Below the pieces are notes generated by a model. The model was given only the letters and a program-made list of their open reading frames with translations, made no database searches and had not been told where the DNA came from. From positions 1,116,001 through 1,180,000 of the forward strand of contig NZ_LNAL01000008.1 in assembly GCF_001483135.1 (NCBI RefSeq): a stretch of DNA of 64,000 nucleotides, given 5' to 3'. The translations under genes were made by a program, and so were the position numbers. This DNA is from Solirubrum puertoriconensis (GTDB lineage: Bacteria > Bacteroidota > Bacteroidia > Cytophagales > Hymenobacteraceae). Position 1 is the stretch's first letter. Each line of letters opens with the position of its first letter. Below, piece after piece: positions 8,708 to 62,393 of the stretch.

Positions 8708-8727
8708 GTAATAGGGAGCTAAATGCC

Positions 8728-9084
8728 TTAGGCGCGCTTCTCCTTGATACGAGCTGCTTTGCCCGACAGGCCGCGCAGGTAGAACAGGCGGGCACGACGA
8801 ACTTTACCGCGACGGATCAGTTCGATCTTGTCAATGTTCGGCGAGATAATCGGGAAGATGCGCTCCGTACCGATCTGGTTCGACACCTTACGTACAGTGA
8901 AAGTTTCACCGTTCGTGTTAGCATTCCGGCGCTGAATAACTACGCCTTGGAACTGCTGGATGCGCTCCTTGTTGCCTTCGCGAATCTTAACGTGTACGTT
9001 AACGGTATCGCCGGGTGCAAACTCGGGGAAGCTGGCGCGGCGCTCTTTGGCTTCCTGGTTGATGAGGTCGAGAAGTTGGCTCAT
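8728..9084 (-). CDS. rplS: Ribosomal protein L19
   Basis: A 118-residue protein of the 50S subunit at the 30S interface. The family pattern is clear: [50 protein letters not shown] and the end [20 protein letters not shown]. An in-frame GTG at 9123 adds 13 residues not found in L19, so ATG 9084 is used. It ends the rpsP-rimM-trmD-rplS group, but a very good promoter lies between it and trmD, so it can be made independently. Confidence 0.97.
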
Positions 9085-9143
9085 GACAGCAAAAAATCTT
9101 GAAAGGACGGCGCCGCCGCCCAAGTGGTTTCGGTAAGGAGGCG

Positions 9144-9174
9144 CAAATATAGCTGTTGTAAAGCTTAGCTACAA
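9144..9174 (-). promoter_or_regulatory. Bacteroidota-type promoter of rplS
   Basis: On the minus strand a TTG (9174-9172) is followed after exactly 20 bases by TATATTTG (9151-9144), a full match to the known TTG-N19-21-TAnnTTTG consensus. The -33 element is next to the trmD stop codon. Transcription would start about 50 bases before the rplS ATG. Confidence 0.7.
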
Positions 9175-9176
9175 TA

Positions 9177-9914
9177 CTAAGCGTTAGGTTTTTTGCGACG
9201 CCGCTTGGGTTGCGGCGCCTCAAAGGCTTCGGCAGGCAAATCGGACAACAAATCCGGGCGGCGCTGGCGGGTACGCTCCAGTGCTTTTTCCTGCCGCCAT
9301 TCGTCTACTTTGGGCGTATCGCCCGATACCAGAATGCTCGGAACCTCGCGGCCGCGCCACTCCGCGGGGCGGGTGTATACGGGCGGGGCTAGCAAACCAT
9401 CCTGAAAAGAGTCGCTTAGCGCCGACTCCTCGTTGCCCAACACACCCGGCAGCAGACGTATTACGGCATCTACCACCACGGCTGCGCCTAGCTCGCCACC
9501 GCTTAGCACAAAATCGCCGATGCTGATTTCCTCGGTGACATACTCTTCCCGGATGCGCTCGTCGATGCCCTTGTAGTGGCCGCAAAGCAGAATGATGTTC
9601 TGCGTTAACGAGAGACGGTTAGCCGCTGCCTGCCGAAAGGTTGGCCCATCGGGCGTGAGGTAGATGACAGCGTCGTAGGTGCGCTCTGCCAATAACCCAT
9701 CGAGGCAAGCAGCAATGGGCTCGGGGCGCAATACCATGCCGGCTCCGCCACCAAAGGCATAGTCGTCGATCTGGCCGTGCTTGTTGATGGCAAACCGACG
9801 CAAATCGTGCAGATGAATTTCGGCCAAGCCTTTGTCCTGTGCCCGGCGAACAATAGAGTGCGCGAAGGGGCTGGAGAGCAACTCGGGCTGACAGGTTACG
9901 ATATCGAAGCGCAT
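9177..9914 (-). CDS. trmD: tRNA (guanine-N1)-methyltransferase
   Basis: A 245-residue SPOUT methyltransferase that makes m1G37 in tRNAs reading codons starting with C or G next to the anticodon, using S-adenosylmethionine. The trefoil-knot signatures are present: DDYAFGGGAGMVLRPEP (about residues 50-66), LLCGHYKGIDERI (about 110-122) and EISIGDFVLSGGE with the catalytic Asp. The C-terminal 30 residues are a basic tail (PKRRRKKP). Start ATG 9914 is immediately before the family's first strand MRFDIVT. It lies between rimM and rplS as in many bacteria. Confidence 0.97.
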   Translation of the reverse strand: MRFDIVTCQPELLSSPFAHSIVRRAQDKGLAEIHLHDLRRFAINKHGQIDDYAFGGGAGMVLRPEPIAACLDGLLAERTYDAVIYLTPDGPTFRQAAANRLSLTQNIILLCGHYKGIDERIREEYVTEEISIGDFVLSGGELGAAVVVDAVIRLLPGVLGNEESALSDSFQDGLLAPPVYTRPAEWRGREVPSILVSGDTPKVDEWRQEKALERTRQRRPDLLSDLPAEAFEAPQPKRRRKKPNA

Positions 9915-48485: not shown

Positions 48486-50117
48486 TTACTGCACCGTAAC
48501 GGCGCGGGTAGTTACCTGCTGACCGTGCTCTACGCGCAGGATGTACACGCCCGTTGGCAGATTGGCCGTGTTGAAGGTGGTTTCGGTAACGGCACCGGCG
48601 AGCTGCAGCGTTTGCTCGGCAACGCGGCGGCCCAGCTGATTGAGCAGCACTGCCCGCGCGGGTTGGGCATCGTAGCCCTCGAGGCGCAGCGTAAACTGCT
48701 CGCGGGCCGGGTTGGGATACACGCTGGTCGCGGCGAGGGTAGCGTTGCTTTCAGTGATGCGGTTGCGGGCGTTGGAGGCGCCAAAGCTCGCGAGGTAGCC
48801 GCTCGTAAAGGTGCTGTTGAGCGCATCGGTGCCAAACCGGCACGAACCCGTGAACACACCCGCCGTGAAGATGGTGTTGTTGCGGTCGATGGCCAGCGCG
48901 GTGCTGGAGCTGGTACCCGGGCCGCTAACCAATGTGGGCTCAAATGCCTTGCCGTTGGGCTGCAGCTGCACCACAAACGATTGGTTGGTGCTCTGCGAGG
49001 TAAAGTTTGCAACACCCGACATAAACACTTTGCCCGTTGCCTTGTCCACGGCCAAGTCGCCGTCGTAGTCGCCGTTGGTGCCCCCTACGGCGGTAGCCCA
49101 GCCTACTCGGCCGTCGCGGTTGTAGCGCACTACTACTGCATCGGCGTCGCCGTGGCTGGTCAGGATTTTGCTGCCAAAGGTGCTGGTGCCCGAAAACGAG
49201 CCCGCCAGATACACATTGCCCTGGTTGTCGGTGGCCAGGGAGTTGCCGTTGCCGTTGGCGGCCGGAGCCTGCAGCCATTGCAGCTGGCCCTGGCGGGCAT
49301 CAAACTTGGCCAAAAACAACGAGTAGCTGCTATTGGCCGGAATGCTTTGGCCCGCCAGCTGCATGCCGCCAAACTGGTTGCCGCTCAGGTAGCAATTGCC
49401 AAAGTTATCCACCGACACGCCCCAGCCGCGGTTGCCGCCGTAGCTGGCTACGCTTTGCCACATTTGGGCCCAGCGCACCGTGCCCTGCGGCGTGTAGCTG
49501 GCGAGGTACGTTTGCCGCTCGCGGTTGGCAAAGGCCAGCGCCCCGATGTGCACCTGGCTGCCGCTAGCCTGCCCCGTGAGGTAAGCATTACCCGCCAGAT
49601 CGACGGCCACGGCCCAGGCCTCGCACGTGCCGTAGAGCTCGGTGCCCGATGCGCTGATTTGTTGTACCCACTGCACCTGCCCCGCGGAGCTGCACTTCAG
49701 CAGAAAAGCGGTATTGCCGCCGTCCGGGGTTTGGGCCGTTACCTGCTGGTTGTTGCCATAGCTCAGCGTACCCTGAAAATAGCCGGCCACGTAGCTGTTG
49801 CCCTGGGCATCTACCTGCACGCTGGTACCTAGGGCATTGGCGCTGCAAGGCAGTTGGGTAGCCCACACCACTTCGCCCGAGGGGCGGCATTTGGCTACGT
49901 ACACGCTTAAGCTACCGGGCGAGGTAAGCTGCGTTTTGCCGAGCTGCAGCGTGCCAGCCACACGGCCGGTAACGTAATAATAGCCCGCGGCGTCAGTGGC
50001 TATGTCCATCACGCCGTTGAAATCAGAAACCGGTTGCGCCCACTTCCAAGTGGCGTTGGGTTGGGCTTGGGCCGACATACCAATAAATAGGCACAGGGCG
50101 AGTAGTAGCTGCTTCAT
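48486..50117 (-). CDS. Secreted repeat protein with type IX (type A) sorting domain
   Basis: A 543-residue T9SS cargo. Signal peptide MKQLLLALCLFIGMSAQA. Residues about 20-450 contain repeats of the SBBP type, each with a D-x-x-G-N-x-Y-x-x-G core: DAAGYYYVTGRVAG, DAQGNSYVAGYFQG, DLAGNAYLTGQASG, DNFGNCYLSGNQFG and DNQGNVYLAGSFSG, a propeller architecture. The last 85 residues are the T9SS CTD: SVYPNPAREQFTLRL, then RAVLLNQLGRRV and LPTGVYILRVEHGQQV. A second in-frame start lies two codons up (TTG 50123). Confidence 0.9.
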   Translation of the reverse strand: MKQLLLALCLFIGMSAQAQPNATWKWAQPVSDFNGVMDIATDAAGYYYVTGRVAGTLQLGKTQLTSPGSLSVYVAKCRPSGEVVWATQLPCSANALGTSVQVDAQGNSYVAGYFQGTLSYGNNQQVTAQTPDGGNTAFLLKCSSAGQVQWVQQISASGTELYGTCEAWAVAVDLAGNAYLTGQASGSQVHIGALAFANRERQTYLASYTPQGTVRWAQMWQSVASYGGNRGWGVSVDNFGNCYLSGNQFGGMQLAGQSIPANSSYSLFLAKFDARQGQLQWLQAPAANGNGNSLATDNQGNVYLAGSFSGTSTFGSKILTSHGDADAVVVRYNRDGRVGWATAVGGTNGDYDGDLAVDKATGKVFMSGVANFTSQSTNQSFVVQLQPNGKAFEPTLVSGPGTSSSTALAIDRNNTIFTAGVFTGSCRFGTDALNSTFTSGYLASFGASNARNRITESNATLAATSVYPNPAREQFTLRLEGYDAQPARAVLLNQLGRRVAEQTLQLAGAVTETTFNTANLPTGVYILRVEHGQQVTTRAVTVQ

Positions 50118-50492
50118 ACACAAAAACGGTAAGTAGGGGGTGGAGGAGTGGCCCGGCGTGGGGCCTGTGTGGCTGGTGCATAAGCACCCCAGCTCTTACG
50201 GTAACGGGCCAGAACAAGCTGCCCAAACTTTCAATCAACACTCGATGCCAACCAGCGCAGCTAATACCCTTAAATGGGCCACTGCCGACTAACCTCCCAA
50301 GCCAAGCTTACGGCGGAGGTTAGTAACATAATTCGAATACTAAAGCTAGGAGTGCTTGTGGTTAATCCAAAACAAAAATGAATAAGTTATAATAGTTGAG
50401 CTTGATAGTTGTGTTGTTTATTTAGTGTTGATGAGCTTTAAGCAATTGGTTATTAATGTGCTGCAATTATTTGCTGCATAAGGTAGGTGAGC
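50118..50492. other. Gene-free AT-rich spacer
   Basis: This 375-base spacer lies between the PIG-L gene (ending 50493) and the T9SS gene, both on the minus strand. Bases 50330-50490 are markedly AT-rich, likely promoter DNA for the T9SS gene. It holds a hairpin with arms CTAACCTCC (50289-50297) and GGAGGTTAG (50315-50323) and the 13-base motif shared with 44303-44315. I see no open frame worth calling. Confidence 0.6.
50289..50323. repeat. Inverted repeat, 9-bp arms
   Basis: CTAACCTCC and GGAGGTTAG flank 17 bases that can also pair (AAGC with GCTT). It could be a leader hairpin of the T9SS gene or a terminator 170 bases after the PIG-L gene. Confidence 0.5.
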
Positions 50493-51305
50493 CTAGGTTT
50501 TAATGGCTAAAGGAGTGTGCAGTCTTAACCCGGAAGGTAGAGCTGCAAGGTGCTCCGCATGTATGCTGAAACGCTCCGCTACCGAGTTCAAACCGGCCGC
50601 TTGGCCCTCGGCCTGCGCCAGCGCGTGCAGCTTGCTGGCGGCCTGCTCGGGCCCTCCGAACTGAAACGGTACTTGGGTGCAGTACGCCTGCGAAGCTGCG
50701 ATTTTAGCCTCCAGAGCCTCGGCGGATAGTGGCACGGCTACTTCGCCCAAATTGGTAGGTAGTTCGGGCGCGGGCTGGGCCGTGGGCTGCCGAATAATAT
50801 AGGGCGTGTCGCGGTACCACAGCACTGGCAACTCGCCGGCTGCAGCGCGTACGGCCTGCATCAGCCGCCGGTGGTCGACGTGCAAGCCCAAACCTTGCGG
50901 CGCAAACAGCAGTTGAGGTTGCAGGGCAGCCAGCTCGTGCCGGAGCAAAGTTTCTATTTGCTGGCCGATGTCGTCGGAGGGCAGCAGATCGGCAAACAGC
51001 GCGGCCGCGCTTTGGTAGCCCCGGTGCGGTGCTTCGGGCAAATCGAGCCAGCGCACGGTCGCTGCCCCAAGCAAGCTGGCGGCGGCGGTGTCTTCCTGCC
51101 GGCGCAGGGCCAGGTAATCTACCTCGGCGGGCAGGCCCTTATCGGTTTGGCAGGCCAGCGCAAAGCCGGTGGGATTGGGCACCGAGCGCGTAAAGGCCGT
51201 AAGCAGCACGCATTGCCAACCTTGGTGCGCTAAGCTGGCAAAGGTGCCGCCGCAGGAGAATGCTACGTCATCGAGGTGCGGCGAAAGAAACAGCGCTATG
51301 GGCAT
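50493..51305 (-). CDS. PIG-L family deacetylase
   Basis: A 270-residue zinc deacetylase of the LmbE/PIG-L/MshB/BshB fold. The metal site PHLDD (His10, Asp12, Asp13) and HVDH (His142, His145) are present, so it should be active. Relatives remove acetyl groups from N-acetylglucosaminyl conjugates: GlcNAc-inositol in mycothiol, GlcNAc-malate in bacillithiol. It is the last gene of the YcaO operon, 95 bases after a family 4 glycosyltransferase, the same pairing as in those two thiol pathways. The specific substrate is inferred, not seen. The stop is followed by a long AT-rich spacer. Confidence 0.88.
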   Translation of the reverse strand: MPIALFLSPHLDDVAFSCGGTFASLAHQGWQCVLLTAFTRSVPNPTGFALACQTDKGLPAEVDYLALRRQEDTAAASLLGAATVRWLDLPEAPHRGYQSAAALFADLLPSDDIGQQIETLLRHELAALQPQLLFAPQGLGLHVDHRRLMQAVRAAAGELPVLWYRDTPYIIRQPTAQPAPELPTNLGEVAVPLSAEALEAKIAASQAYCTQVPFQFGGPEQAASKLHALAQAEGQAAGLNSVAERFSIHAEHLAALPSGLRLHTPLAIKT

Positions 51306-51400
51306 AGGCCAGGTATTCGGTATTGAGTACTACGGAATGGTTCACTTCTGACTTTATGCTGTTAACCGCTCATTGCTCATCATTTATTGATAATTGCCTA

Positions 51401-52642
51401 TTACAGCAAGTGCGGAGCTTCGCGGTAGCGGCAAGGCTCGGGCGCGGCTGAGTCGTCGGGCCAGCCCAGATCGGGGGTGGTGCCGGCAAGCTGGCGGTAC
51501 ACCGCGTCGATTTGCCGCCCGATAATGGGCCAAGCATAGGTACTACGTACCTCGTTAAGGGCGGCGTGGGCCAGTTGCGCCCGCAAAGGCTCATCGTCTA
51601 GGGTTAAAGCCAGGGCATTGGTTAGGGCCGCTACATCGCCGGGGCGCACCAGCAGGCCGTTTTCGGCGTGGCGCAGGCAGTCGACTACGCCCACGGCCTC
51701 GGCCGCTACGCAAGGCAAGCCGCTGGCCATGGCTTCGAGAATGGTGTTGGAGAAGCCCTCGGCGTAGGTCGGCGACACAAACACATCGGCGCGGTGGTAC
51801 ACGGCGGGCACCTCGTCGTAGGCTACGTAGCCCGCAAGCTCCACCTGGGCCTGCCACGGGGCAGTTTGCACACGCTGGCGTACGGCTTCCAAATCGGGCC
51901 CAATGCCCGAAACAATCAGGCGCAGGTTGGGGCGCGTGGGGGCGAGTTGCTCAAAGGCATAAAGCAAATCAAGCACGCCCTTGCGCCGATCGACGCGGCC
52001 GTGGTAAAGCAGCGTGGGGTGGGCGGCGTTGGCCCACTGCCCCGGCTGCCAGTCGGCCCTAGGTCGGAAGCGGCTTACATCCACGGCACCGGGCACGTAG
52101 GTAAACCGCTCGGGCGCGGTGCCGTGGTTTTCCATCACCTCCTGCGCAAACGAAGGGCAGCCGATGAGCACCGCGCCAGCGTGGTTGAGCACCGCCCGAA
52201 TGGCCCGCTGGTGGGTGCCGCAGCAGTTCACGCCTACCCAATGCCCGTCGCCGCCTTGGATGCTGACCACGTTAGGCACGCCTAGCAGCCGGCTCAGCTG
52301 CAGCGCGGCCAGGCCGGGTGGGTAGCCGTACTGCGCATGAATAATGTCGAAAGGGCGCTGCTGGTGCAGGTGTTGCACGGTATCCACAATGGCTTGCACG
52401 TCGTCTTCGAACCGCCCGCCGTTTTGCTCGCCGTGAGCTTCGAGCCCTACCACCCGCACGCCCGGCACCGGCGGCGGTGGCCCGCCGCCGTACACGCCGC
52501 GGCCCACGGCATCGTTGCGGTACTGCGACACCATGGTTACCTCATGACCTAAGGCCACCAGCTCGCGCAGCAGGTTTTGCGCGTACACGCTCATGCCCGA
52601 AATGGCCGGAAAGTAGCGGCGGGAGATAAAGCAGATGTTCAT
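51401..52642 (-). CDS. Family 4 glycosyltransferase
   Basis: A 413-residue GT-B enzyme. ATG 52642 (MNICFISRRYFPAISGMSVY) is the true start; earlier codons are overlap with the previous gene. The acceptor half has SVYAQNLLRELVALGHEV and FDIIHAQYGYPPG. The donor half carries LYHGRVDRRKGV and the nucleotide-sugar motif EGFSNTILEAMASGLPC with catalytic Glu. It resembles the MshA/BshA branch in general layout, but the acceptor is not certain. Its ATG overlaps the TIM-barrel stop by 4 bases (ATGA), so it is coupled to the upstream genes of the operon. Confidence 0.88.
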   Translation of the reverse strand: MNICFISRRYFPAISGMSVYAQNLLRELVALGHEVTMVSQYRNDAVGRGVYGGGPPPPVPGVRVVGLEAHGEQNGGRFEDDVQAIVDTVQHLHQQRPFDIIHAQYGYPPGLAALQLSRLLGVPNVVSIQGGDGHWVGVNCCGTHQRAIRAVLNHAGAVLIGCPSFAQEVMENHGTAPERFTYVPGAVDVSRFRPRADWQPGQWANAAHPTLLYHGRVDRRKGVLDLLYAFEQLAPTRPNLRLIVSGIGPDLEAVRQRVQTAPWQAQVELAGYVAYDEVPAVYHRADVFVSPTYAEGFSNTILEAMASGLPCVAAEAVGVVDCLRHAENGLLVRPGDVAALTNALALTLDDEPLRAQLAHAALNEVRSTYAWPIIGRQIDAVYRQLAGTTPDLGWPDDSAAPEPCRYREAPHLL

Positions 52643-53598
52643 GCGGATTGCAGTTGGCGTTCGGTCTGGCGCAGGTAGCGCAGGGCTTCGGGTATCATGA
52701 GGTGGGCGCGGTGCGACTCGCGCGAAAGCTCCACGCACACCAGGCCCCGGAACCGCACGGCGCGCAAGGCTTGAAGCACGGCGGCTACGTCCATGTCGCC
52801 TTCGCCGAAGGGCAGGTGCTCGTGCACGCCCCGCCGCATGTCTTCGATGGCTACGGTACCAAGCAAGGGCGCCAGCTCGTGCACGGCAGCGGCCGGTTCG
52901 CGCTCCTGCGTAACCAGCAGGTGCCCCGTGTCGAGGGCCAGGCGCAGGCTGGGCACGGCCTGGCGCACCCGCAGAAAGTCATCAACGGTTTCAATCAGCA
53001 TGCCGGGCTCGGGCTCCACGGAGGCTACCACGCCGCGCTCCTGAGCTGCCGCGGCTACTTGGTGCAAACCTTCGAGCAGCCACTCCCAGGCTTGCTCGCG
53101 GGCCACGCTCGGTTGCGGCACCCCGGCCCAAAACGACACGGTTTCGCTGCCGCAGGCCGCACAAATGTCAAGGCAGCGCGTCAGGAACTCGACGCGCCGC
53201 TGCCGGCCGGCCAGGCTGGGGCTGAGCAGCGTGGGCTCGTGTTTCTGGCGGGCATCGAGCAGGTAGCGGGCGCCGGTTTCAATTACCAGTCCTAGGTTTA
53301 GCTCGCGCAACTGGCGGTTGAGCTGGGCGTTGCGGCCCCCGAAGTCGGGCGCAAACGGGTCGTGGTGATGGTGGTCGAGCGTTAGGGCCACGCCGTCGTA
53401 GCCGGCTTCGGCAATCAGTTCCAGCGCATCGCTGAGGCGGTGGTTAGCAGCCCCGTTGGTGTTGTAGGCGTAGCGAAGCCCTAGGTTATCCGGCTTGCTT
53501 TCCGGTTGTGAGGTAGGGTGGCTTGGAGTAGCAGCGACCGAGAAGTTAGCCGGGGTTGTGGGCTGAAGTGCCCCGCGGGCAGCAAAGTTTTCAGGCAT
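52639..53598 (-). CDS. Sugar phosphate isomerase/epimerase (xylose isomerase-like TIM barrel)
   Basis: A 319-residue TIM-barrel protein. After about 40 low-complexity residues come GLRYAYNTNGAANHRLSDAL, EAGYDGVALTLDHHH, ETVSFWAGVPQ and metal-ligand strands EPEPGMLIETVDDF, LALDTGHLLV and GTVAIEDMRRGVHEHLPFGE, with a late Glu in VCVELSRESHR. These fit the AP-endonuclease-2-like isomerase family with a divalent metal site. Such proteins isomerise or epimerise keto sugars or inosose; substrate not determined. It overlaps the YcaO gene by 8 bases and the glycosyltransferase by 4. Confidence 0.87.
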   Translation of the reverse strand: MPENFAARGALQPTTPANFSVAATPSHPTSQPESKPDNLGLRYAYNTNGAANHRLSDALELIAEAGYDGVALTLDHHHHDPFAPDFGGRNAQLNRQLRELNLGLVIETGARYLLDARQKHEPTLLSPSLAGRQRRVEFLTRCLDICAACGSETVSFWAGVPQPSVAREQAWEWLLEGLHQVAAAAQERGVVASVEPEPGMLIETVDDFLRVRQAVPSLRLALDTGHLLVTQEREPAAAVHELAPLLGTVAIEDMRRGVHEHLPFGEGDMDVAAVLQALRAVRFRGLVCVELSRESHRAHLMIPEALRYLRQTERQLQSA

Positions 53599-55081
53599 GG
53601 GCGGGAGCAGTTTCGGGCGTGCTGAAATGGTAGACGTGGCGTTCCGGCTCGCGGTACAGCGCGTACAACTCGCCCACCACCTCGCGGGCCAGCACGGGGT
53701 TAAACCAGGCCGGTTCACCTAGGGCGGCCTCGGCGGAGGCGGGCAGCGGCACGCGCAGAGCACCGGGGGGCGGCGTACCTAGGCCCACCAGTGGGCTGCG
53801 CCGGGCTAGTAGTTTGCTAAGGTTGCGGCGACCGATGCGGTCGTACGTCATGGTTTCGACCTCCAACTCGGGCACTACGGCCTTGAGGGTGCGCACCGGG
53901 CCGCTGGGGTCGGTAAACTCCACGTAGTACACTTCGAGCCCCGCGGTAGCTAGTCGCTCGTGCACCACGCGCAATAGCTCAGCAGGGTTGCCGAGCGAGC
54001 CGTAGGGCACCGTGGGTAGCTCCGAAAACCGCACCCTGCGCGCTACCCGAAACACCGTATCCTGCAGGCGGGCAAATAGCTCGGTGGGCGTAAGGGCCAA
54101 CCACTGCCGCATGGCCTCGGCGGCGCGAGTTTCCTGGTTTTCGAGGCGGGGTGGGTCGTGGCGTACCTGGGCCAGGTACTCCGGCGCCACGTCATTCAGC
54201 CAAGCCATATCGCCGTGCTCGAAGCGCTTGCGCACGCGGCTCGAGGCAAACTCGCGCAGGGCTTTGGCCAAGGCTACTTCGCGGTCGGGGTGGGCGGCCT
54301 CGCCGCAGCCCGTGAGCATCAGCGGGTGCGGCACCTGCCCTAGGTCGCGCTCGTAGCCCACCACGTAGAGGCTGCAAATACCGAAGTCAGCCGAAGCCAG
54401 CTTTACCTGAATTTCTAGCCCGGCCTCGTCGTAGCGCTGCAGCAGGGCGCGGGTTTCGGGGTCCTGCACCTCATCAAGCTCGATGAGCACGCCTTGATCG
54501 AGGGCACGGTAGCTAATGGCGTTGCCGTCGCGCTGCAGCAGCTCAAGCAGCCCGTGCGACAGCGCCCGCTCCAACGACTCGCCCGCGCCCATGCCGTTGG
54601 TTATGGGCGTGTACAGCCAATCGTGCGCGGCTTGGCCGTGCCAGTCGCCGGGCCAGGTAGCCGCCGTTTCAATGGGCACCCAAATAACTTCCTGACTTGG
54701 GTAGGAGCGGGCTTGTGTCCAGAGCAGTTCGGTGTCGGGTGTGTAGGAGGTGCCGACGGGCAGCCGGTCGCGCATCGGATCGAGGCAGCGTACGCCTTCG
54801 GCCAGCAGCTGCCGGTACGAGGCCCGGCGCCGCGGCATTTGCGTGAGGTAAAGGTTCACGAAGGTTTCCTCCGTGATTTCGCCATAGGCACCTAGGCGCG
54901 CCTGGTAATCGGTGGGGCCGTAACCGGTACCGGTGCTCATACCGCCGGGTAACCACTGCGCCAGGCTCCAAACGGGCACGCCTAGGTAATCGAGCGAGCT
55001 GAGGGGTATTTCATACACCGGCGCCGGCGGCAAGGCTTTCTGGTACAACTGAATTGGATCCGTGGGTGAGGTCGGGGGCAT
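53591..55081 (-). CDS. YcaO-domain protein (ATP-dependent amide/carboxylate activator)
   Basis: A 496-residue YcaO protein. The ATP-binding elements are in order: GAYGEITEE (64-72), NGMGAGESLERALSHGLLEL with LLQRDG (162-186), and TGCGEAAHPDREVALAKALR with EFASSR (257-282). The family phosphorylates an amide or carboxyl oxygen to drive cyclodehydration, thioamidation or amidine formation. The C-terminus lacks the PxPxP ending of azoline-forming YcaOs, and no partner E1-like, TfuA or precursor-peptide gene is near. Context is sugar and inositol enzymes, so a small-molecule substrate is more likely than a peptide. ATG 55081 lies 71 bases inside the upstream gene; the start is therefore unsure. 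Confidence 0.88.
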   Translation of the reverse strand: MPPTSPTDPIQLYQKALPPAPVYEIPLSSLDYLGVPVWSLAQWLPGGMSTGTGYGPTDYQARLGAYGEITEETFVNLYLTQMPRRRASYRQLLAEGVRCLDPMRDRLPVGTSYTPDTELLWTQARSYPSQEVIWVPIETAATWPGDWHGQAAHDWLYTPITNGMGAGESLERALSHGLLELLQRDGNAISYRALDQGVLIELDEVQDPETRALLQRYDEAGLEIQVKLASADFGICSLYVVGYERDLGQVPHPLMLTGCGEAAHPDREVALAKALREFASSRVRKRFEHGDMAWLNDVAPEYLAQVRHDPPRLENQETRAAEAMRQWLALTPTELFARLQDTVFRVARRVRFSELPTVPYGSLGNPAELLRVVHERLATAGLEVYYVEFTDPSGPVRTLKAVVPELEVETMTYDRIGRRNLSKLLARRSPLVGLGTPPPGALRVPLPASAEAALGEPAWFNPVLAREVVGELYALYREPERHVYHFSTPETAPAHA

Positions 55082-55910
55082 GGCTGGAAGTCGTTAGCGG
55101 AAGGATATCGGCGAAGGGGCGCCCGGCGAGCTGGGCCGCGAATAGCTGCCGGGCGGCGGCTTTGCCGCCCGCGGGCACGGGCTCCCAAGGCGTGAGTACC
55201 CCGTCGAACTCGAGCGGCTCGAGTACGGCCTGGTAGTGGCGCACATCGGCGTGCGATAGGGGAATGTGCGCGTCGTAGGCCCGGTGGGTGCTGATGTGGG
55301 TAGCCTGCCCATCGGCATCGAGCTTAAACTTGAGCGCATCGCCGCAGCACAGCAGCTGCCGCGGGGGCAGGTGCAGCACGGCGTGGCCGGGCGTGTGGCG
55401 GCCGGTGTGGTGAAGCACGGCGCCCGGGTGCAGCTCGGCGCGGTCTTCGTAGGGCCAGTTCACCCGAAAAGCCTGGCAGAACGGCAGCTCATCTTGCTGC
55501 ATTACTACCTCGGGCTCGAAGGCCTCCACCAGCTGCCACAAGGCGCCAAACACGTGGCAGTGCGAAGCCGATAGGTACCGAATGCCTCCTAGGTCGCGGA
55601 TGAAATCCAGCGCCTCGGCGCTGTAATAACCGGCGCCTTCAAAGGCTACGTTGCCGTGCTCGGCATCCACAATGAGGTAGCCGCGCGGGCCAATGCCCAA
55701 CTGCGGCTCGTTCCAGAACTGCCAGATGCCCGGCAGCACCTCGGCCCACTGCATGCGCAAGCGGCCGCCCACCTCGGCTTCGGTGGCGAAGGTCCAGCCA
55801 TTAGGGGGCAGGGGGTGGCGGTAATCGAGGCAAACCGGGCAGCTGGGTGGGCCCGGCGCAAAGTAGCGCTGCCAAAAACCGCAGTTGGTGCACGCGTAAA
55901 GCTGATGCAT
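55011..55910 (-). CDS. Metallo-beta-lactamase-fold hydrolase with N-terminal zinc ribbon
   Basis: A 299-residue protein. Residues 1-30 hold a rubredoxin-like ribbon, Cys7-x2-Cys10 and Cys24-x2-Cys27. The MBL fold follows: SASHCHVFGAL (His117, His119), TPGHAVLHL (His176) and CGDALKF (Asp191). The standard HxHxDH is reduced to HCHVFG, so the second metal site is missing and chemistry may differ from normal MBL enzymes. Homologous architectures with rubredoxin parts act in redox or sulfur chemistry, which would suit a partner of YcaO, but this is inference. Its 3' end overlaps the YcaO start by 71 bases. Confidence 0.82.
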   Translation of the reverse strand: MHQLYACTNCGFWQRYFAPGPPSCPVCLDYRHPLPPNGWTFATEAEVGGRLRMQWAEVLPGIWQFWNEPQLGIGPRGYLIVDAEHGNVAFEGAGYYSAEALDFIRDLGGIRYLSASHCHVFGALWQLVEAFEPEVVMQQDELPFCQAFRVNWPYEDRAELHPGAVLHHTGRHTPGHAVLHLPPRQLLCCGDALKFKLDADGQATHISTHRAYDAHIPLSHADVRHYQAVLEPLEFDGVLTPWEPVPAGGKAAARQLFAAQLAGRPFADILPLTTSSHAPDLTHGSNSVVPESLAAGAGV

Positions 55911-55953
55911 GGAAAGCTGGCGTTTGGGTAGGAGGAAAGTACCTAGGTCGCAA

Positions 55954-57057
55954 TCAGTACGTCAGGGCCAAGGAGGCTTGGCCCGCGCCGGGTTCGGTTG
56001 CGGCGGGCGCAGCAGCTGATGCCGGCGCCACGGCATGCGCGGTGGGCTGCGCGGCGGCATCGAGCAGGCGCATGGTGTGCAAATCGAGGGTGGCGGGGTA
56101 CGGAAACGGCCGGCCCGTGCGCACGGCTTCGGCAAAAGCCTCGATCTGCCGCTGAAAAGGCGAGGCTTCTAGGTCGAAAGCCACGTCTTCGGTGCGGCCG
56201 TCGGCGTGGGTAAGCTGCAGCGAACCGCCGGGTGTCTGGCCCATGGTGTTCAGGGCCACGGCGCGGGCCCGGTCGCCGATTACCTCCAGCGTGCGGCGCG
56301 GGTAATTGTCGGGGCAGTTGTAAGCCACAGAGTGCGAAAGCAGCACGCCGCTGGCCGTGCGCCCAATCAGCACGGCGCCATCGTCGACGGGGTAGGGGTG
56401 CACGCGGCGCTGCATGAGGGCGGCAATTTCCACGAGCGGCTCGCCCAGCAGCGTTTGGGTGAGGTCGAGGCCGTGCGGCGCCAGGTCGATCATGGCGCCG
56501 CCGCCAGCCTCCTCGGGCGAAATGCGCCAGTTGTGGTACACACCTAGGTCGGTTTGCGGCGTCCAGTCGGCGGGCGTCCAGCAGGCGTAGTGGATGCGCA
56601 CGCAGGTGATGGTGCCCAGCACGCCGGTTGCAATCAGCTCGCGCAAGCGCACGTGGGCCGGATGGAAGCGCTGATCGAAAGCCGTAGCCAGCAGGGTGCC
56701 CGCTTCGGTAGCCGCTTCAATCATGCTGGCCGCTTCTGGGGCTGTACGGGCCAGTGGCTTTTCGCAAAGCACGGGCAGACCTGCCGCGGCCAAGGCCTGT
56801 ACTACGGCGGCGTGGTGGGCGTTGGGCGTGGCCACGTACACGGCCTGCAGCCCCGGCGTGTGGATAAACTCTTGCAGGGCAGTGGTGCGCAACACCTGCG
56901 GCTGCTCGGGCGCAACGGCTGCCAAGGCCTGCGGATTCAGGTCGCAGAGGGCGACTAAGTGGCCGTTGGCCGAGGCCGTAATGGCCGGCGCTACGTAGTC
57001 GCGAGCTACCCAGCCGCAGCCTACAATACCCCAACCAACCGATGTTGCGTTGCTCAT
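55954..57057 (-). CDS. Gfo/Idh/MocA-family oxidoreductase
   Basis: A 367-residue NAD(P)-dependent oxidoreductase. The Rossmann half has GIVGCGWVARDYVAPAI and VYVATPNAHHAAVVQ with the catalytic CEKPLA (about residues 98-103). The C-terminal half has HNWRISPEEAGGGAMIDLAP and HGLDL, where the substrate His is expected. Family members oxidise or epimerise sugars and inositols; inositol 2-dehydrogenase is one of them, which matches the inositol synthase in this operon. The tail after residue 330 is Ala-rich and disordered. It lies 91 bases after the HD-like gene and 43 bases before the MBL gene. Confidence 0.9.
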   Translation of the reverse strand: MSNATSVGWGIVGCGWVARDYVAPAITASANGHLVALCDLNPQALAAVAPEQPQVLRTTALQEFIHTPGLQAVYVATPNAHHAAVVQALAAAGLPVLCEKPLARTAPEAASMIEAATEAGTLLATAFDQRFHPAHVRLRELIATGVLGTITCVRIHYACWTPADWTPQTDLGVYHNWRISPEEAGGGAMIDLAPHGLDLTQTLLGEPLVEIAALMQRRVHPYPVDDGAVLIGRTASGVLLSHSVAYNCPDNYPRRTLEVIGDRARAVALNTMGQTPGGSLQLTHADGRTEDVAFDLEASPFQRQIEAFAEAVRTGRPFPYPATLDLHTMRLLDAAAQPTAHAVAPASAAAPAATEPGAGQASLALTY

Positions 57058-57148
57058 AACCTAGGGGTTGCGTTGCTGAATGAAGTTGCCGAGGGTCGGA
57101 CAAGCCTAGCCCTGCGGCTTTGCCTAAGCGGGTGCCGAATGGCGCTGC

Positions 57149-58096
57149 CTAGGTATGCGGCAACAAGCCGGCTGCGGCCAGCACCTGCCGGTGAAACTGC
57201 TGCGTAAAGCCGGCGTGCACGATGTTCAAATCGTCGAGGGCGTGGTGCAGCCGGAACTGCGCGCTTTGGTCGTGCCAGGCCATTTCGAGCACGCGGTCGA
57301 GCACATCGGCGGCATGGAAAGCCTGGGCCGAGGCATGCTCCAGCGCTTGAATACGCGCCAGCGCCTGCTCTACGGCGGGCCGCAACGTGGCCGGCAATTG
57401 CCCTAGCGCCTGCGCAGTGGCCTGCGCCATGAGCCCTGGCAAATGGTTGCCCAGTAGCTCGTCGCCGGCGTAGCCGGGGTCGGGCAGCACGGCGTTGTGC
57501 AGGTGGTGCGCCATGCCCATCAGGAACGCCTCGCCGGGCTCTGCTTCAAACTGCGGAGAAAGCAGCACGGCGTAAACAGCTACCATCAGGCAATGGTCGG
57601 CGTGGCTTTCGGTAGGCCACAGTATAATGCGCGCCCGGCCGGGGTGCGTAGCGCCGGCGCGGGGCTGCTGGGCGAGCTGCGCTACAAAGGCGGGCTCGGC
57701 ACCTAGGGCGGGCGTGGCAAACAAGGCATCGGCCAGCTGCGCGCTTAGCGCGGGCGGTAACTGGGCGGTAATTTGCCCTAAAGCCTGTTGCAATACTTCG
57801 CGGGCGGTTTCGGCGGGCATGCCCAGTTGTTGCAGTAGCGCGGCGTGGTAGCCCGGCAGGCGCACACTTACCAGGGCGCGGGCAGTTTCGTGCAGGGCTA
57901 CTTCGGCTAAGGGTGCGCCCGCTGCCAGCGCGGCCCACGCGCGGGCAAAAGCCTGCTCGGCCAGAGAGTGGGAACTACCGGCCACGCGTACCCGCTTCAG
58001 GTCGTTTAGTTCGCGCAGCAGCGGGGTTGGGGTGCACAAAGCGGCCAGCGCCTCGGACCTGGCCGGAGCGCTGGTAGGCAATGCAGCCAGCACCAC
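57149..58096 (-). CDS. HD-domain-like protein
   Basis: A 315-residue protein that starts at GTG 58096, the base next to the stop codon of the inositol synthase gene. The N-terminal 150 residues are Ala-rich helices. A domain at about 150-290 has WPTESHADHCLMVAVYAVLL, GMAHHLHNAVLPDPG and HAADVLDRVLEMAWHD, an order of H...H(H/D)...D like HD phosphohydrolases. The central HD pair reads HHLHN, so one Asp ligand may be changed or shifted. If active it would cut a phosphate ester. It has no close match I can name. Confidence 0.7.
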   Translation of the reverse strand: MVLAALPTSAPARSEALAALCTPTPLLRELNDLKRVRVAGSSHSLAEQAFARAWAALAAGAPLAEVALHETARALVSVRLPGYHAALLQQLGMPAETAREVLQQALGQITAQLPPALSAQLADALFATPALGAEPAFVAQLAQQPRAGATHPGRARIILWPTESHADHCLMVAVYAVLLSPQFEAEPGEAFLMGMAHHLHNAVLPDPGYAGDELLGNHLPGLMAQATAQALGQLPATLRPAVEQALARIQALEHASAQAFHAADVLDRVLEMAWHDQSAQFRLHHALDDLNIVHAGFTQQFHRQVLAAAGLLPHT

Positions 58097-59431
58097 CTAG
58101 GCCGTAGGAGCGTTGGGGCTGAAATTGGCCAGCGCCGCTGCCATGGCGCCGTTCACGGCTACTGGGGCGGCGGGTTGCTCGGCAGCCAGCCAATCGAGCA
58201 GCATGGCCTGTTGGCGCTCAAATGCGTGCTCGGGCTGGGTGTGCGCATCGGGCACCATCGGCGATTTAAAGAAGCCGCTCAGGGCCGGCACCACGCCGCC
58301 TTCGCCGCGGCGCTTGGCTAAATCGGCGAGGCGTACCAGCTCCAGCACCAGCGGCGCGGCCAAAATGGAGTCGCGGCACAAGAAGTTAACCTTGATCTGC
58401 ATTTTCTGGCCCAGGAAACCTTCGACGTCGATGTTGTCCCAAGCTTCTTTGTTGTCGCCGCGCGGCTGGTAGTAGTGAATGTGCACCACGTGGCTATCCA
58501 CCTTGTAGCCCAAAATCTGATCGAGCACCGAGCCTTTGGTGGTGAGCTTGGAAGCCAACGATTCAGGGTTGTCGAGCGCCTTGCCGTCGCGGTTGCCCAG
58601 GATGTTGGTCGAAAACCAGCCGTCGACGTGCAGGTTGCGGGCGCGGAAGGCCGGCGCCAGCACGGTTTTCATAAAGGTTTGGCCCGTTTTGCCATCCTTG
58701 CCCGCCACCGGAACGCCGCGCTGCTCGGCCAGGCGCAGCAACGCCGATGCATCGGCCGCGCACGAGGGCGTGAAGTTGACGTAGGGCACCTCCTCCAGAA
58801 TGGCCGCGTAGGCGTAGAGCATGGCCGGCGGTATGCGCTCATCGTTGTTGCGCACGGCTTCGTCAAAGGCTTCGGGCGTGGCAAACAGGGGCAGCGTAAG
58901 GTCGGGCATGGCTTCCGTCGAAGCCAGATTAACTACCACCACGCGCTCCAACTGCTGTTCATCTTTAAAGCGCCCTAGGTCGGCCCGAATGGCCTCTACG
59001 GCGGCAGCGTGCGAGCTTACCGCCAGCAAGTGCTGGCCCGTAACGTTGCGGCAAAAACGCGCATTACCCACGGCTGGCCAGGGCCGTAGAGCACTAAGCT
59101 CGGCATCGGCGGCGGCTAGTTGCTGCGGCTCCAGCACGCGGTGCTGGCGGGCGGCGGTAGCAAGGTCGTCGGCACACAAATCCCAGCCGGCAAATACCAG
59201 GTTCCCGTAATCAGCGAGTTGGGCGGTAAGCTCGGCGGGCAAGGTAGCCAGCGGCAAACCCGTGGTGCCAATTGCGCCAGCCCGCATTAGAGCTACGCCG
59301 GCAATGGCGGTGCTGGCCACTGCACCACCTAGGCCCACTACCGCTACGCCAACGCGCTCCGAGCGGGCATTACTACGAGATGTGACGGTGCCGGCAACTG
59401 CCCCGTTACGTGGAGTGGTAGATAACGACAT
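58097..59431 (-). CDS. ino1: Inositol-3-phosphate synthase
   Basis: A 444-residue NAD-dependent enzyme that turns glucose 6-phosphate into 1D-myo-inositol 3-phosphate. The Rossmann motif is GVAVVGLGGAVAS (about residues 27-39), and the core signature is GKDGKTGQTFMKTVL, then VDGWFSTNILGNRDGKAL, NPESLASKL and KMQIKVNFLCRDSILAAPLV. The family is clear. It is the first gene of the operon and so probably supplies the inositol building block. The TAG stop is formed inside CCTAGG (58096-58101), with the next gene's GTG directly after. Promoter DNA lies in the AT-rich spacer beyond 59431. Confidence 0.95.
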   Translation of the reverse strand: MSLSTTPRNGAVAGTVTSRSNARSERVGVAVVGLGGAVASTAIAGVALMRAGAIGTTGLPLATLPAELTAQLADYGNLVFAGWDLCADDLATAARQHRVLEPQQLAAADAELSALRPWPAVGNARFCRNVTGQHLLAVSSHAAAVEAIRADLGRFKDEQQLERVVVVNLASTEAMPDLTLPLFATPEAFDEAVRNNDERIPPAMLYAYAAILEEVPYVNFTPSCAADASALLRLAEQRGVPVAGKDGKTGQTFMKTVLAPAFRARNLHVDGWFSTNILGNRDGKALDNPESLASKLTTKGSVLDQILGYKVDSHVVHIHYYQPRGDNKEAWDNIDVEGFLGQKMQIKVNFLCRDSILAAPLVLELVRLADLAKRRGEGGVVPALSGFFKSPMVPDAHTQPEHAFERQQAMLLDWLAAEQPAAPVAVNGAMAAALANFSPNAPTA

Positions 59432-59789: not shown

Positions 59790-62393
59790 ATGCCTACTGC
59801 AGCCCCTCAGCCCAATGCCAATTTGCAAGCCAGTACGGCCGAACAAGCGCTGGCGCTCGGCTCCATGTTCGACACCATGCCGTGGGGCGTGCTGCAGTTT
59901 GCGGCCGATGGCACGCTGGCTCTGGTAAGCAAGGCGGCCGAAGCGCTCTGGGGTTTATCGCGCCCGAAGTTGATGGGCACGGTGCCTTGGCAAGCCTATC
60001 CCGAGGCACTGCCAGCCCAACTCTACCAAGCCCTGCAGTACGCGCTGCACCAACCCGGCACCCCCGAGTTGGCCGTGTTTTGGTTGCCCAATACACAGCG
60101 CTACATCAGCATGAGCAGCGCGCCTGCCTCCAATGGCGGCGTGTGGGTGTACTGGCAAGATGTAACTGAGCAGCAGCAGCAGGTGCAGCAGTACCAAGCC
60201 CTTGTCGAGAATACGCCCGACATCATTACGCGCTGGAACCAAGAGTTGCGGCTGGTATTCAGCAACCGGGCATTTCAGCAGAAAACGGGGGAGCCGCCCG
60301 CTTGGCTGCTAGGCAAAACCACCCACGAAATAAGTCAGCCCGAAACCGTAACCGGTCCGTGGGTGGCCAAGCTGCAGCGCGTGCTCGATACGGGCGAGCC
60401 GCAGGAGCACTACAGCTCGGTGACTACTGCCAACGGGGTAGCGCACTATTTCACGCGCATGGTGCCCGAGCTGCACAACGGCATTGTGCAAACGGTGCTG
60501 GCCATTACGCACGACATCACGGAGCTGCGCGAGCAGGCCTACTTCACCGAAAAACTTACCAACAGCACCCCCGATCTGCTGTACGTACTGGAGCTTACCG
60601 AGCCGCACGTTACCTACATCAACAGACGGGTAGAGGCCGTGCTGGGTAGTCCGCCCTCGGAGGTAACGGCCACCGGGGCCATGGTGCTGCGCAATGCCCT
60701 TCACCCCGACGACCTAGGCCGCCGCATGGCGCACATTGCTGCCTGCCGCGACTTAGCCGACGATGAAGTAAAAATCATTGACGTGCGCTTTCGCGTAGCC
60801 GATGGCTCGTACCGCTGGTTTCGGCTGCGCGACCGGGCCTTTATGCGCGGGCCCGACGGCCGCGTAACGCACACCATTGGCTCGGGGCAGGATATTGATG
60901 CCCAGCGTAAGGCCGAGCGCGAGCTGCAGGAAAGCAAGGCTTTTATCGAGGAAGTAACCAAGTCGACGCCCGATCTGATTACCATTCATGATGTGCCGAG
61001 CAACCGCGTGGTGTACGCCAACCATACCGACCCGTGGTACGGGCAACTCGCGTTGCCCTTGGTGCACAGCATGCCCGACTCTGAGCGCGTGCAGCTGCTC
61101 TTTCACCCCGACGACCACGTGCGGGCCAATGAGTTTATGCAACAGCGGCGGCAGCTAGCCGACGGCGACATCTTGGAAATTGAGGTGCGCAACCAATTCG
61201 GGAACACCGAATGGCAGTGGCTGCGCATCAGGAGCAAGGTGTTTCGGCGCAATGCTGCCGGGCAGCCCTTGCAAATCATTTCGTTTACCAGCAACATCAC
61301 CGCCGCTAAGCAGGCGCAGCAGGCCCTGCAGCAAGCCCACGCGCAGCTTACCTGGGCCAGCTCTACCATTCGGCGCATGCTCGATGGCTCGCCGGCGGCC
61401 ATTTGCCTGATGGAGGCCCGGCGCGATGCACACGGGCGGATCGTCGACTTTGTCTTCCGGGGAGTAAACCAGGCCGCCGAAGATCTAAACCAACGCACCG
61501 AGGCCGAACTGCTGGGCCACGGCTTGCTCGAGTTTTACCCCAACGTGCGGCAGGTGTTTTTCGACGATTACGTGCGCGTGGTAGAAACCGGTGAGCCTTT
61601 CCGGACGGAGCGGGGCTACACCGGCGAGCATTTCCGCAACCGGTGGTTTGATGTATCGGCCGTGAAAAACGAGGACGGCTTCATCATGACCTACCTCGAT
61701 ATATCCAGCCGCAAGCAAATTGAGCTGGCCCTGCAGCAAGCCAATACGCGCCTGCAGCAGTTAAGCGGGGCCGTGCTGCAAGCGCAGGAAGAGGAGCGCC
61801 AACGTATTGCCGAAAGCCTGCACAACGGCCTGGGGCAGGTGCTGTACGCCGCCAAGCTGCAGCTCGATCAGTTGCCCAGTGCGCAGGCGCTTTCCGATAC
61901 TCCTCGGCAAGCTGCTGCCCGCCGCGAGGCCGACCGCTTGCTGGCCGAGGCCATCCGGCTCACGCGCAGCATTTCGCACGAGCTTACACCGCGCATTGTG
62001 GCCGAGCTCGGCCTGGAGGCTGCCCTGCAGGATATCTGCCGCAGCCTTAGCACAGGCATGCTGCACATGCAATGCCTGATACTGCTCGACGACGAATTGC
62101 CCTTAACCTTGCAAGTAGCCTTGTACCGCTTAGCGCAGGAATTGGCCCAGAACATTGTAAAGCACGCCGGCGCCACCCAGGCCACTCTGGAGGTAGCCAC
62201 GCGCCCCGGTTGGGTGGTGATGCAAATTGAAGACAACGGCTGCGGCTTTGTGCCCGAAGAACCGACTACCGGCATTGGCCTCAAAACCCTGCGCGACCGG
62301 GTCGACCTGATTGGCGGAACCACGCACATCAGCACCTCGGCCCGGCAGGGCACGCGCATTCAGGTGCGCATACCGCTGCCGGCGGCCAATTAG
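59790..62393 (+). CDS. Multi-PAS sensor histidine kinase (NarL-partner type)
   Basis: An 867-residue cytoplasmic kinase. About five PAS-like domains can be traced (from about 20, 140, 265, 390 and 530), for example YQALVENTPDIITRWNQELR and LTNSTPDLLYVLELTE. Residues about 650-690 are HisKA_3, with the phospho-acceptor in ERQRIAESLHNGLGQVLY. The ATPase half has N-box ELAQNIVKHAGA, G1 EDNGCGF and G2 GIGLKTLRDRVDLIGG. There is no signal peptide or membrane segment, so it senses inside the cell. No response regulator is adjacent. It is divergent from the ino1/YcaO operon and could control it, which is inference. Its stop overlaps the next gene by 4 bases. Confidence 0.9.
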   Translation: MPTAAPQPNANLQASTAEQALALGSMFDTMPWGVLQFAADGTLALVSKAAEALWGLSRPKLMGTVPWQAYPEALPAQLYQALQYALHQPGTPELAVFWLPNTQRYISMSSAPASNGGVWVYWQDVTEQQQQVQQYQALVENTPDIITRWNQELRLVFSNRAFQQKTGEPPAWLLGKTTHEISQPETVTGPWVAKLQRVLDTGEPQEHYSSVTTANGVAHYFTRMVPELHNGIVQTVLAITHDITELREQAYFTEKLTNSTPDLLYVLELTEPHVTYINRRVEAVLGSPPSEVTATGAMVLRNALHPDDLGRRMAHIAACRDLADDEVKIIDVRFRVADGSYRWFRLRDRAFMRGPDGRVTHTIGSGQDIDAQRKAERELQESKAFIEEVTKSTPDLITIHDVPSNRVVYANHTDPWYGQLALPLVHSMPDSERVQLLFHPDDHVRANEFMQQRRQLADGDILEIEVRNQFGNTEWQWLRIRSKVFRRNAAGQPLQIISFTSNITAAKQAQQALQQAHAQLTWASSTIRRMLDGSPAAICLMEARRDAHGRIVDFVFRGVNQAAEDLNQRTEAELLGHGLLEFYPNVRQVFFDDYVRVVETGEPFRTERGYTGEHFRNRWFDVSAVKNEDGFIMTYLDISSRKQIELALQQANTRLQQLSGAVLQAQEEERQRIAESLHNGLGQVLYAAKLQLDQLPSAQALSDTPRQAAARREADRLLAEAIRLTRSISHELTPRIVAELGLEAALQDICRSLSTGMLHMQCLILLDDELPLTLQVALYRLAQELAQNIVKHAGATQATLEVATRPGWVVMQIEDNGCGFVPEEPTTGIGLKTLRDRVDLIGGTTHISTSARQGTRIQVRIPLPAAN

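Follow-up and report, generated by a model that had tools for sequence, protein, structure and literature searches.

A patchily distributed YcaO operon with cyclitol and sugar enzymes: a candidate pathway for a small molecule made without a peptide substrate

Introduction

This study concerns an operon of eight genes built around an enzyme of the YcaO family and located in a 64,000-nucleotide stretch of the genome of Solirubrum puertoriconensis (Bacteroidota; contig NZ_LNAL01000008.1, positions 1,116,001 to 1,180,000), which is called the window below. Several described systems resemble parts of this operon. Mycosporine-like amino acids are made by MysA (DDGS), MysB (an O-methyltransferase), MysC (an ATP-grasp enzyme), and MysD. 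Oxidation of inositol by IolG-type enzymes and dehydration by IolE-type enzymes yield trihydroxycyclohexane-1,2-dione, the enediol tautomer of which is 2,3-dihydroxycyclohexenone; 2-O-methylation of that enediol gives the gadusol chromophore. The YcaO protein of Escherichia coli acts on the ribosomal protein uL16. Gadusol synthesis in vertebrates is outlined in PMC4426668 as the work of EEVS and MT-Ox, which together cover cyclase, methyltransferase, and NAD oxidoreductase activities. Every YcaO function named in the available parts of PMC13063428 and PMC8442711 is exerted on peptides or proteins, and amidine formation on peptides is among them (PMC8442711).

In its proposed logic, the operon resembles the mycosporine pathway in a cyclitol enone core, O-methylation, and ATP-dependent joining of an amine, and a cyclase of the dehydroquinate (DHQ)-synthase superfamily was found in 3 of the 84 compared loci. 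Unlike that pathway, it has a YcaO and not an ATP-grasp enzyme, usually has Ino1 and not DDGS, additionally encodes a family 4 glycosyltransferase (GT4) and a PIG-L deacetylase, and, in the window, has no methyltransferase (MT). No sugar-phosphate cyclase is present in the window operon, and no ATP-grasp (MysC-type) domain was found in the operon proteins scanned. Clusters for ribosomally synthesized and post-translationally modified peptides (RiPPs), as well as the systems for McrA or uL16 thioamidation, share with the operon the YcaO family and its ATP residues; no precursor, E1-like, or TfuA partner was found for the operon, which has sugar and cyclitol enzymes instead.

The gene set is a real conserved unit with a patchy spread. 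A small-molecule pathway is well supported, and a role of the YcaO as a small-molecule ligase is plausible. The fuller reading, in which the YcaO would act as amine ligase for a non-ribosomal, glycosylated, amine-conjugated cyclitol that may serve as a UV screen, stands as a whole somewhat short of an even chance. Among the matches listed, no description of this gene set was found in the open-licence literature, and none of them links YcaO to mycosporine or to extorquens.

Organization of the Operon

The operon occupies positions 50493-59431 of the window and consists of the following genes.

58097..59431, minus strand: ino1, the leading gene, for a myo-inositol-1-phosphate synthase (PF07994, 218 bits; PF01658)
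57149..58096, minus strand: HD-domain protein with a helical N-terminal half and an HD-like metal domain, the HD motif changed to HH (PF13023, HD_3, 23.1 bits, cut-off 22.5)
55954..57057, minus strand: Gfo/Idh/MocA NAD(P)-dependent sugar or cyclitol oxidoreductase (PF01408)
55011..55910, minus strand: four-Cys ribbon with a metallo-beta-lactamase (MBL) fold (orthologue and structure model), likely partner of YcaO
53591..55081, minus strand: ATP enzyme of the YcaO family, put forward as the pathway's ligase (PF02624, 186 bits, cut-off 25.7)
52639..53598, minus strand: TIM-barrel enzyme (TIM) resembling sugar isomerases, epimerases, and dehydratases (PF01261, xylose-isomerase-like)
51401..52642, minus strand: GT4, retaining glycosyltransferase (PF00534/PF13692)
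50493..51305, minus strand: de-N-acetylase of the PIG-L family, closing the operon (PF02585, 63.8 bits)

The order given in the initial annotation, together with its gaps and overlaps, was confirmed from the open reading frames (ORFs), and the families mostly by Pfam, which names seven of the eight proteins; the exception is the window MBL, for which no Pfam hit was obtained. The gaps are 0 (ino1/HD), 91 (HD/Gfo), 43 (Gfo/MBL), and 95 bases (GT4/PIG-L), and the overlaps are 71 (MBL/YcaO), 8 (YcaO/TIM), and 4 bases (TIM/GT4). The starts of TIM and GT4 were set at ATG 53598 and ATG 52642, respectively, on the basis of orthologue support; the listed ORFs begin further upstream at GTG. PADLOC models for anti-phage defence matched 0 families among the eight proteins, and a defence-system reading was dropped for this reason.

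Conservation and Distribution

A scan of a collection of 84,980 species with the YcaO yielded 212 relatives. The loci of the best 80, together with four plasmid loci, form the comparison set of 84 loci (L numbers below), which is skewed toward Methylobacterium and toward query-like YcaOs. The whole set of genes is complete and collinear in 63 of the 84 loci. Because the same order recurs in so many loci, the arrangement is more than a chance one, and the single-pathway idea of the initial annotation, which depended on the genes being neighbours in other genomes, survives. In 37 loci, all of them from Methylobacterium or Methylorubrum, the order is Ino1-HD-MT-Gfo-YcaO-TIM-GT4-PIG-L with no MBL; the complete set is joined by both MBL and MT in 20 loci and by MBL with no MT in 6. 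An MT gene is added in 63 of the 84 loci. In 12 of the remaining 21 loci, a contig ends within 100 bases of operon genes; the other nine differ within the available stretch (L022, L026, L028, L035, L037, L038, L042, L057, and L095).

Complete copies were found in Bacteroidota, Pseudomonadota, Actinomycetota, and Myxococcota, and variant operons in single loci of Armatimonadota, Verrucomicrobiota, Planctomycetota, and Chloroflexota. Seven regions from further genomes were also analyzed: five are complete (that of genome G248 included), one lacks a match to PIG-L, and the start of the contig truncates the seventh. The genes are thus neighbours far beyond related genomes, but the operon is absent from most close relatives, so that its conservation is seen only outside the family. 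The YcaO was found only in the own genome among 58 close relatives, in 1 of 8 genomes of the genus, and in 6 of the 204 genomes from the family to which the window belongs. The 395 genomes analyzed from the phylum gave 10 matches; only those in the own genome and in G248 (53% identity) are full-length, and the other eight are partial (E 5e-10 to 6e-4). When further cyclase-type loci (see below) were sought in the phyla of L022 (151 genomes), L026 (294), and L025 (288), the YcaO was each time matched only in the centre genome. It was found in 28 of 248 genomes of a Methylorubrum's family.

A plasmid search with the YcaO returned 107 records, four of them close: Hymenobacter volaticus (82.6% identity), Roseomonas haemaphysalidis (44.4%), Methylobacterium bullatum (41.1%), and M. 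aquaticum (40.2%). All four are embedded in the operon, which in M. aquaticum MA-22A is located on plasmid pMaq22A_1p. The patchy occurrence and the plasmid copies suggest lateral transfer of the operon. In the YcaO tree, the window copy is nearest to those of Hymenobacter; the Bacteroidota rows cluster (8 rows, 100/97), as do the Methylobacterium rows, and a recent transfer between phyla is therefore disfavoured. No match was obtained among 50,697 phage records, and a phage origin was dropped on that ground. In H. volaticus, the Gfo/Idh gene is annotated as two overlapping pieces (L012:7102-8150), from a broken gene or a sequencing error. The YcaOs of L035, L042, and L095 belong to the family and have no operon in the available stretch; they lie beside genes that by eye resemble sugar ABC-transporter permeases.

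Source of the Cyclitol Core

The Ino1 family of the operon aligns to the solved myo-inositol-phosphate synthases (MIPS) 7nwr (411 bits) and 1u1i of A. fulgidus. Four lysines, K266, K270, K299, and K360 (counted from an internal start that lies 29 residues in), are unchanged in all 20 sequences compared; we take them to be the MIPS catalytic set, one position presumably being the residue mutated to Ala in 3qvw. Judged by its MIPS domains and lysines, the window Ino1, which is the sole PF07994 match in its genome, is predicted to be a bona fide myo-inositol-phosphate synthase.

No match to Ino1 or TIM was found in L022 (Armatimonadota), L025 (Verrucomicrobiota), and L026 (Planctomycetota), where a cyclase of the DHQ-synthase superfamily comes first. 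These cyclases match PF01761 and PF24621 and score 483-549 bits with NF004852 (cut-off 333); at E 1e-4 and at least 50 bits, no cyclase match was obtained in any other locus of L001-L095 and L113-L119. The cyclase-type genomes have two DHQ-synthase-type genes each. One such gene is present in 16 of the 18 Ino1-type genomes tested, the exceptions being Hymenobacter YC55 and one Micromonospora (weak second hit). PF07994 has no match in two of the three cyclase-type genomes and one in the third; in the 18 Ino1-type genomes there is one match in 13 and two in five, one of the second matches being below the cut-off. In pairwise alignments of the L022 cyclase with ValA (4p53) and the DHQ synthase (DHQS) 5eks, an Asn of DHQS is replaced by Asp as in ValA, and a later His is that of DHQS.

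From these comparisons, the cyclitol-forming step looks like a case of non-orthologous replacement, with Ino1 and the cyclase as interchangeable sources of the core. Since Ino1 is replaced in three loci, inositol would not be essential to the pathway, and HD and Gfo/Idh, being present in both types of loci, probably act on something common to both. The inositol- or amino-sugar-based metabolite of the initial annotation fits this picture apart from the inositol itself, as the cyclase takes the place of both Ino1 and TIM. Through this swap, it becomes possible to test directly whether the core is a cyclitol. Like the gadusol pathway, L026 has a cyclase, an MT, and an NAD-dependent oxidoreductase, with the MT gene directly before the oxidoreductase gene; unlike in that pathway, MT and Gfo/Idh are separate proteins, only this locus has all three, and further genes follow.

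Residues H165, H168, H197, H198, D264, D267, and H294 of the HD protein are invariant in 28 of 28 sequences. Its structure model (pLDDT 92.3) gave no PDB match at E <=0.001, and the HD half weakly resembles HDDC2-type HD proteins. An inositol-oxygenase-type role was considered; the model was matched best by 1xx7 and HDDC2 proteins (E no better than 0.016), PhnZ reached a probability of 0.12, and nothing in these matches is decisive. The EKP and DxxxH motifs of Gfo/Idh are invariant in 24 of 24 sequences, and inositol dehydrogenases match it at about 76-101 bits among the matches listed. In TIM, the full metal set (E163, D191, H194, H229, and E258, numbered from the row starting at 53502) is likewise invariant in 24 of 24. 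A model named for EboE presumably exists in NCBIfam, and TIM matched no model of that name. The Ebo operon, as far as it is described in PMC5133447, is similar in having a cyclitol-forming cyclase and a xylose-isomerase-like protein and in being uncharacterised and perhaps protective; it differs in that no UbiA-type or PF01663-type domain was found in the eight window proteins.

YcaO and Its MBL Partner

The YcaO is assigned to its superfamily by the PF02624 score and by conserved residues: E71, E180, Q183, R184, D185, E277, R282, and R284 are invariant in 32 of 32 sequences, align with MJ1094, and presumably form the ATP/Mg site. MJ1094, which we take to be an archaeal protein-modifying YcaO, is also the nearest solved relative. 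It is one of two points that favour modification of a peptide or protein, as in a RiPP or a thioamide, by a YcaO acting on an unlinked substrate with the sugar enzymes as decorating partners; the other is that peptides and proteins account for all YcaO functions named in the available parts of PMC13063428 and PMC8442711. The gene content argues otherwise, the operon partners being cyclitol and sugar enzymes. The YcaO fell short of the cut-off of every curated NCBIfam YcaO model used for scoring, including SagD (102.6 bits, cut-off 219.25) and methan_mark_1 for McrA thioamidation (110.7 bits, cut-off 365). No E1/Ocin-ThiF or TfuA Pfam domain was found in the eight window proteins or in the extra operon proteins scanned.

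For the precursor search, 1899 small ORFs in and around the 84 loci and the window were compared across genera. Five groups are common to several genera, all on the minus strand. Four of them lie over MdoH-like, cyclase, or uracil-DNA glycosylase (UDG) genes; the fifth consists of four GC-rich ORFs (three from Methylobacterium loci and one from a Paracraurococcus locus) located at or just past the UDG end. No precursor peptide gene was found near the operon in this search, which had no positive control and addressed genes that can be hypervariable. The outcome named in the initial annotation as fatal to its idea, a peptide-modifying branch with a precursor elsewhere, thus found no support near the operon, and we consider peptide modification quite improbable. 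A cyclitol-sugar pathway free of peptides is highly probable. The thioamide that the YcaO was initially thought to install, among other options, looks unlikely because neither a sulphur donor nor a TfuA partner could be recognised in the operon; formation of a C-N bond is the better guess.

Additional YcaOs are found in some loci. A YcaO gene follows PIG-L in L022, L025, L028, and L037, and these proteins, with that of L035, form one clade (100/100) separate from the main YcaOs of L022 and L025, so that two clades share one operon there. Two YcaO copies are present in L032 and L034 (Corallococcus) and three in L033 (a metagenome-assembled genome (MAG) of Myxococcaceae), close together in each case; L030, L036, and L057 (Corallococcus) have a single one. 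One YcaO per coupling step would be the natural reading.

The zinc-ribbon MBL of the initial annotation holds up: the four Cys of the ribbon are conserved, and the MBL fold is supported through an orthologue and a structure model. Residues C7, C10, C24, and C27, the HxH motif, H172, D191, and H209 are invariant in 20 of 20 sequences, and the DH of HxHxDH is missing. The Roseomonas orthologue matches Lactamase_B at 26 bits and a rubredoxin-like ribbon below the cut-off; the model shows an MBL fold, generic only. In six other loci, a single open frame covers both MBL and YcaO; in the window, the two genes share 71 bases that are read in different frames. The MBL is thus likely a partner of the YcaO. 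In genomes with no MBL in the operon, it may sit elsewhere. One genome from the family of Methylorubrum has an MBL homologue on the opposite strand, about 3 kb upstream of its operon (L116:291-1094).

Glycosyltransferase, Deacetylase, and Possible Conjugates

The GT4 proteins share an invariant family motif around SIQGGDGHWVG-CC-TH, and the nearest solved relatives are Tll1590 (118 bits), followed by MshA and BshA (102 each). Together with Ino1 and the PIG-L deacetylase, GT4 recalls the enzyme logic of mycothiol, and, Ino1 aside, that of bacillithiol. In a pathway for such a thiol, Ino1, GT4, and PIG-L would give GlcN-inositol, and the YcaO would stand in place of the cysteine ligase MshC. The scores with curated models are, however, far below their cut-offs: 76.3 against 462.5 bits for MshA (TIGR03449), 51.6 against 638 for the mycothiol-type Ino1 (TIGR03450), 97.8 against 273.7 for BshA, and 29.2 against 182.5 for BshB1. 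GT4 lacks the K-E-[ED]-L-P and HTLAKVKN stretches of MshA (in comparison with one correctly aligned MshA row) and has an invariant motif of its own; on score and motif, its assignment as MshA was dropped. In addition, no cysteine ligase was identified among the eight proteins, the cyclase-type loci have no Ino1, and a separate gene close by is annotated as bshB1 in H. volaticus. Of the genomes tested for this, two of Micromonospora and one of Streptomyces also encode an MshA above its cut-off, and the one of Rubrobacter does not. A thiol product is therefore considered improbable.

A second possibility for these enzymes is an aminocyclitol pseudodisaccharide, for which the architecture of kasugamycin is a model. 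GT4 would place GlcNAc on an oxidised or epimerised inositol, PIG-L would free the amine, and the YcaO would convert it to an amidine, giving an antibiotic or a signal in place of a sunscreen. A cyclitol source (Ino1 or cyclase), GT4, and PIG-L do share one operon, one YcaO clade directly follows PIG-L, and amidine formation by YcaOs is known on peptides (PMC8442711). None of the eight window genes is recognisable as a resistance gene or an exporter, and a fixed order kept across eight phyla would be easier to reconcile with protection, or with a role close to housekeeping, than with an antibiotic. This alternative is unlikely, although it is the least so of those considered here.

Proposed Pathway

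For the preferred reading, an amine-conjugated cyclitol, the following steps are proposed. The sequences themselves support a cyclitol supplied by Ino1 or, in some bacteria, by the sugar-phosphate cyclase, a Gfo/Idh able to oxidise it, a GT4 and a PIG-L able to attach an amino sugar and unmask it, and ATP-driven activation by a YcaO with conserved ATP residues. Going beyond this, Gfo/Idh and TIM would convert inositol to a dehydrated inosose. The enediol tautomer of the latter (2,3-dihydroxycyclohexenone) would be of the gadusol chromophore type, and MT, where present, would yield a 2-methoxy enone. The ring-opening IolD was not identified among the eight window genes. An amine (glucosamine or an amino acid) would then add at the carbonyl of the vinylogous acid; the YcaO, in many lineages together with the MBL as its partner, would phosphorylate the oxygen, and departure of the phosphate would leave a C-N bond. 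The vinylogous acid would here stand in for the amide, and the amine would be the nucleophile. This would be the job done by the ATP-grasp MysC in mycosporine synthesis. In operons with two YcaOs, the second would attach another amine. A very polar product is expected, a mycosporine- or gadusol-like UV screen or redox protectant. We infer both the YcaO chemistry and the UV role: that the YcaO makes a C-N bond on a cyclitol or sugar has about an even chance, and a UV-absorbing product is a tentative proposal, somewhat on the doubtful side. If the reading is true, the large YcaO family would extend from peptides to small molecules, with a MysC-like role.

A number of observations weigh against this reading. 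Hymenobacter YC55, an Ino1-type genome, has a second DHQ-synthase-type gene, and the genome of L026 carries an Ino1-like gene elsewhere. The cyclase matches the DHQS 5eks (158 bits) better than the EEVS 4p53 (143 bits) or 5tpr (101 bits), the latter presumably a DDGS. The operon of L038 has neither Ino1 nor cyclase in the locus. As HD is retained in cyclase-type loci, a role solely as phosphatase of the Ino1 product is disfavoured. The nearest solved relative of Gfo/Idh is a 1,5-anhydrofructose reductase (207 bits) and not an inositol dehydrogenase. TIM is not clearly an IolE (31.0 bits with the NCBIfam IolE model, cut-off 290), its best solved relative being UlaE. The MBL was not found in 46 of the 84 loci: it is missing from all 37 labelled Methylobacterium or Methylorubrum and from nine further incomplete loci, of which L039, L058, and L092 have Gfo/Idh adjoining YcaO. 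The window operon has no MT, and, L026 being the only one of the three cyclase-type loci with an MT, the gadusol set of cyclase, MT, and oxidoreductase is complete in one locus. The link to a UDG-family gene (see below) comes mostly from one genus (35 of 44 loci). The life in light and air suggested by host names such as aerolata, aerophila, aerilata, and crusticola, along with some leaf or lichen isolates, is read from names only. Finally, we know of no product or enzyme assay.

In the L038 locus (Acetobacteraceae KSS12), a very large ORF, PutA-like by eye, precedes HD (L038:1834-5709).

UV Link and Neighbouring Genes

All 9 Methylobacterium and Methylorubrum genomes tested have a single DHQ-synthase-type gene and no second cyclase, which makes a DDGS route improbable in these bacteria. 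UVA-absorbing compounds, methylobamine among them, are attributed to Methylobacterium (PMC9664959; PMC12573535), and no genes for these compounds are named in the available parts of the two sources. One or more small-molecule YcaO ligases could provide surface-living bacteria with a second, independently evolved route to mycosporine-type sunscreens that would explain these compounds; we regard this as rather unlikely. If true, it would open the UVA-absorbing compounds made by phyllosphere bacteria to genetic study.

Genes of the UDG family were found near 44 of the 84 loci, in 42 of them after PIG-L on the same strand with a gap of at most 305 bases; in the Skermanella loci L023 and L029, the gene lies before ino1 on the other strand. 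The superfamily member at L014:13334-13966 matches PF03167 and scores 22.8 bits with UDG family 4 (cut-off 125.3). It could serve in repair or have been recruited to the pathway as an enzyme. Spore photoproduct lyase (SPL) genes were found near 4 of the 84 loci, belonging to Roseomonas, Rubrobacter, an Isosphaeraceae MAG, and Microvirga. These SPL-like genes, by the operon or by an orphan YcaO, are the following.

L013:14735-16853: two SPL-like genes in a row (Roseomonas), PF20903 confirmed for both
L024:1028-2074: SPL-like gene, tblastn match
L026:10176-10412: SPL-like gene, tblastn match
L095:3167-4285 and 8699-9808: SPL-like genes, PF20903 confirmed for one and a tblastn match for the other

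The link with repair genes in the neighbourhood may only mirror relatedness.

An MdoH-like membrane glycosyltransferase is encoded near 14 of the 84 loci (e.g., L013:13182-14741), in Roseomonas, other Acetobacteraceae and relatives, Skermanella, and Aerophototrophica, and an LPG_synthase_TM protein is found near the M. bullatum locus. Both would suit an extracellular or membrane glycoconjugate, such as an inositol-containing headgroup or glycan, serving desiccation tolerance. Such a product would leave the YcaO unexplained, and no CDP-alcohol phosphotransferase or flippase was found among the eight window proteins; we hold it to be hardly probable.

Two genes flank the operon in the window. 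A protein that by eye resembles a PAS-domain histidine kinase is encoded divergently from ino1 (59790-62393) and is a possible regulator. Downstream of the operon, positions 48486-50123 encode a secreted beta-propeller (SBBP) protein with a sorting tail of the type IX secretion system.

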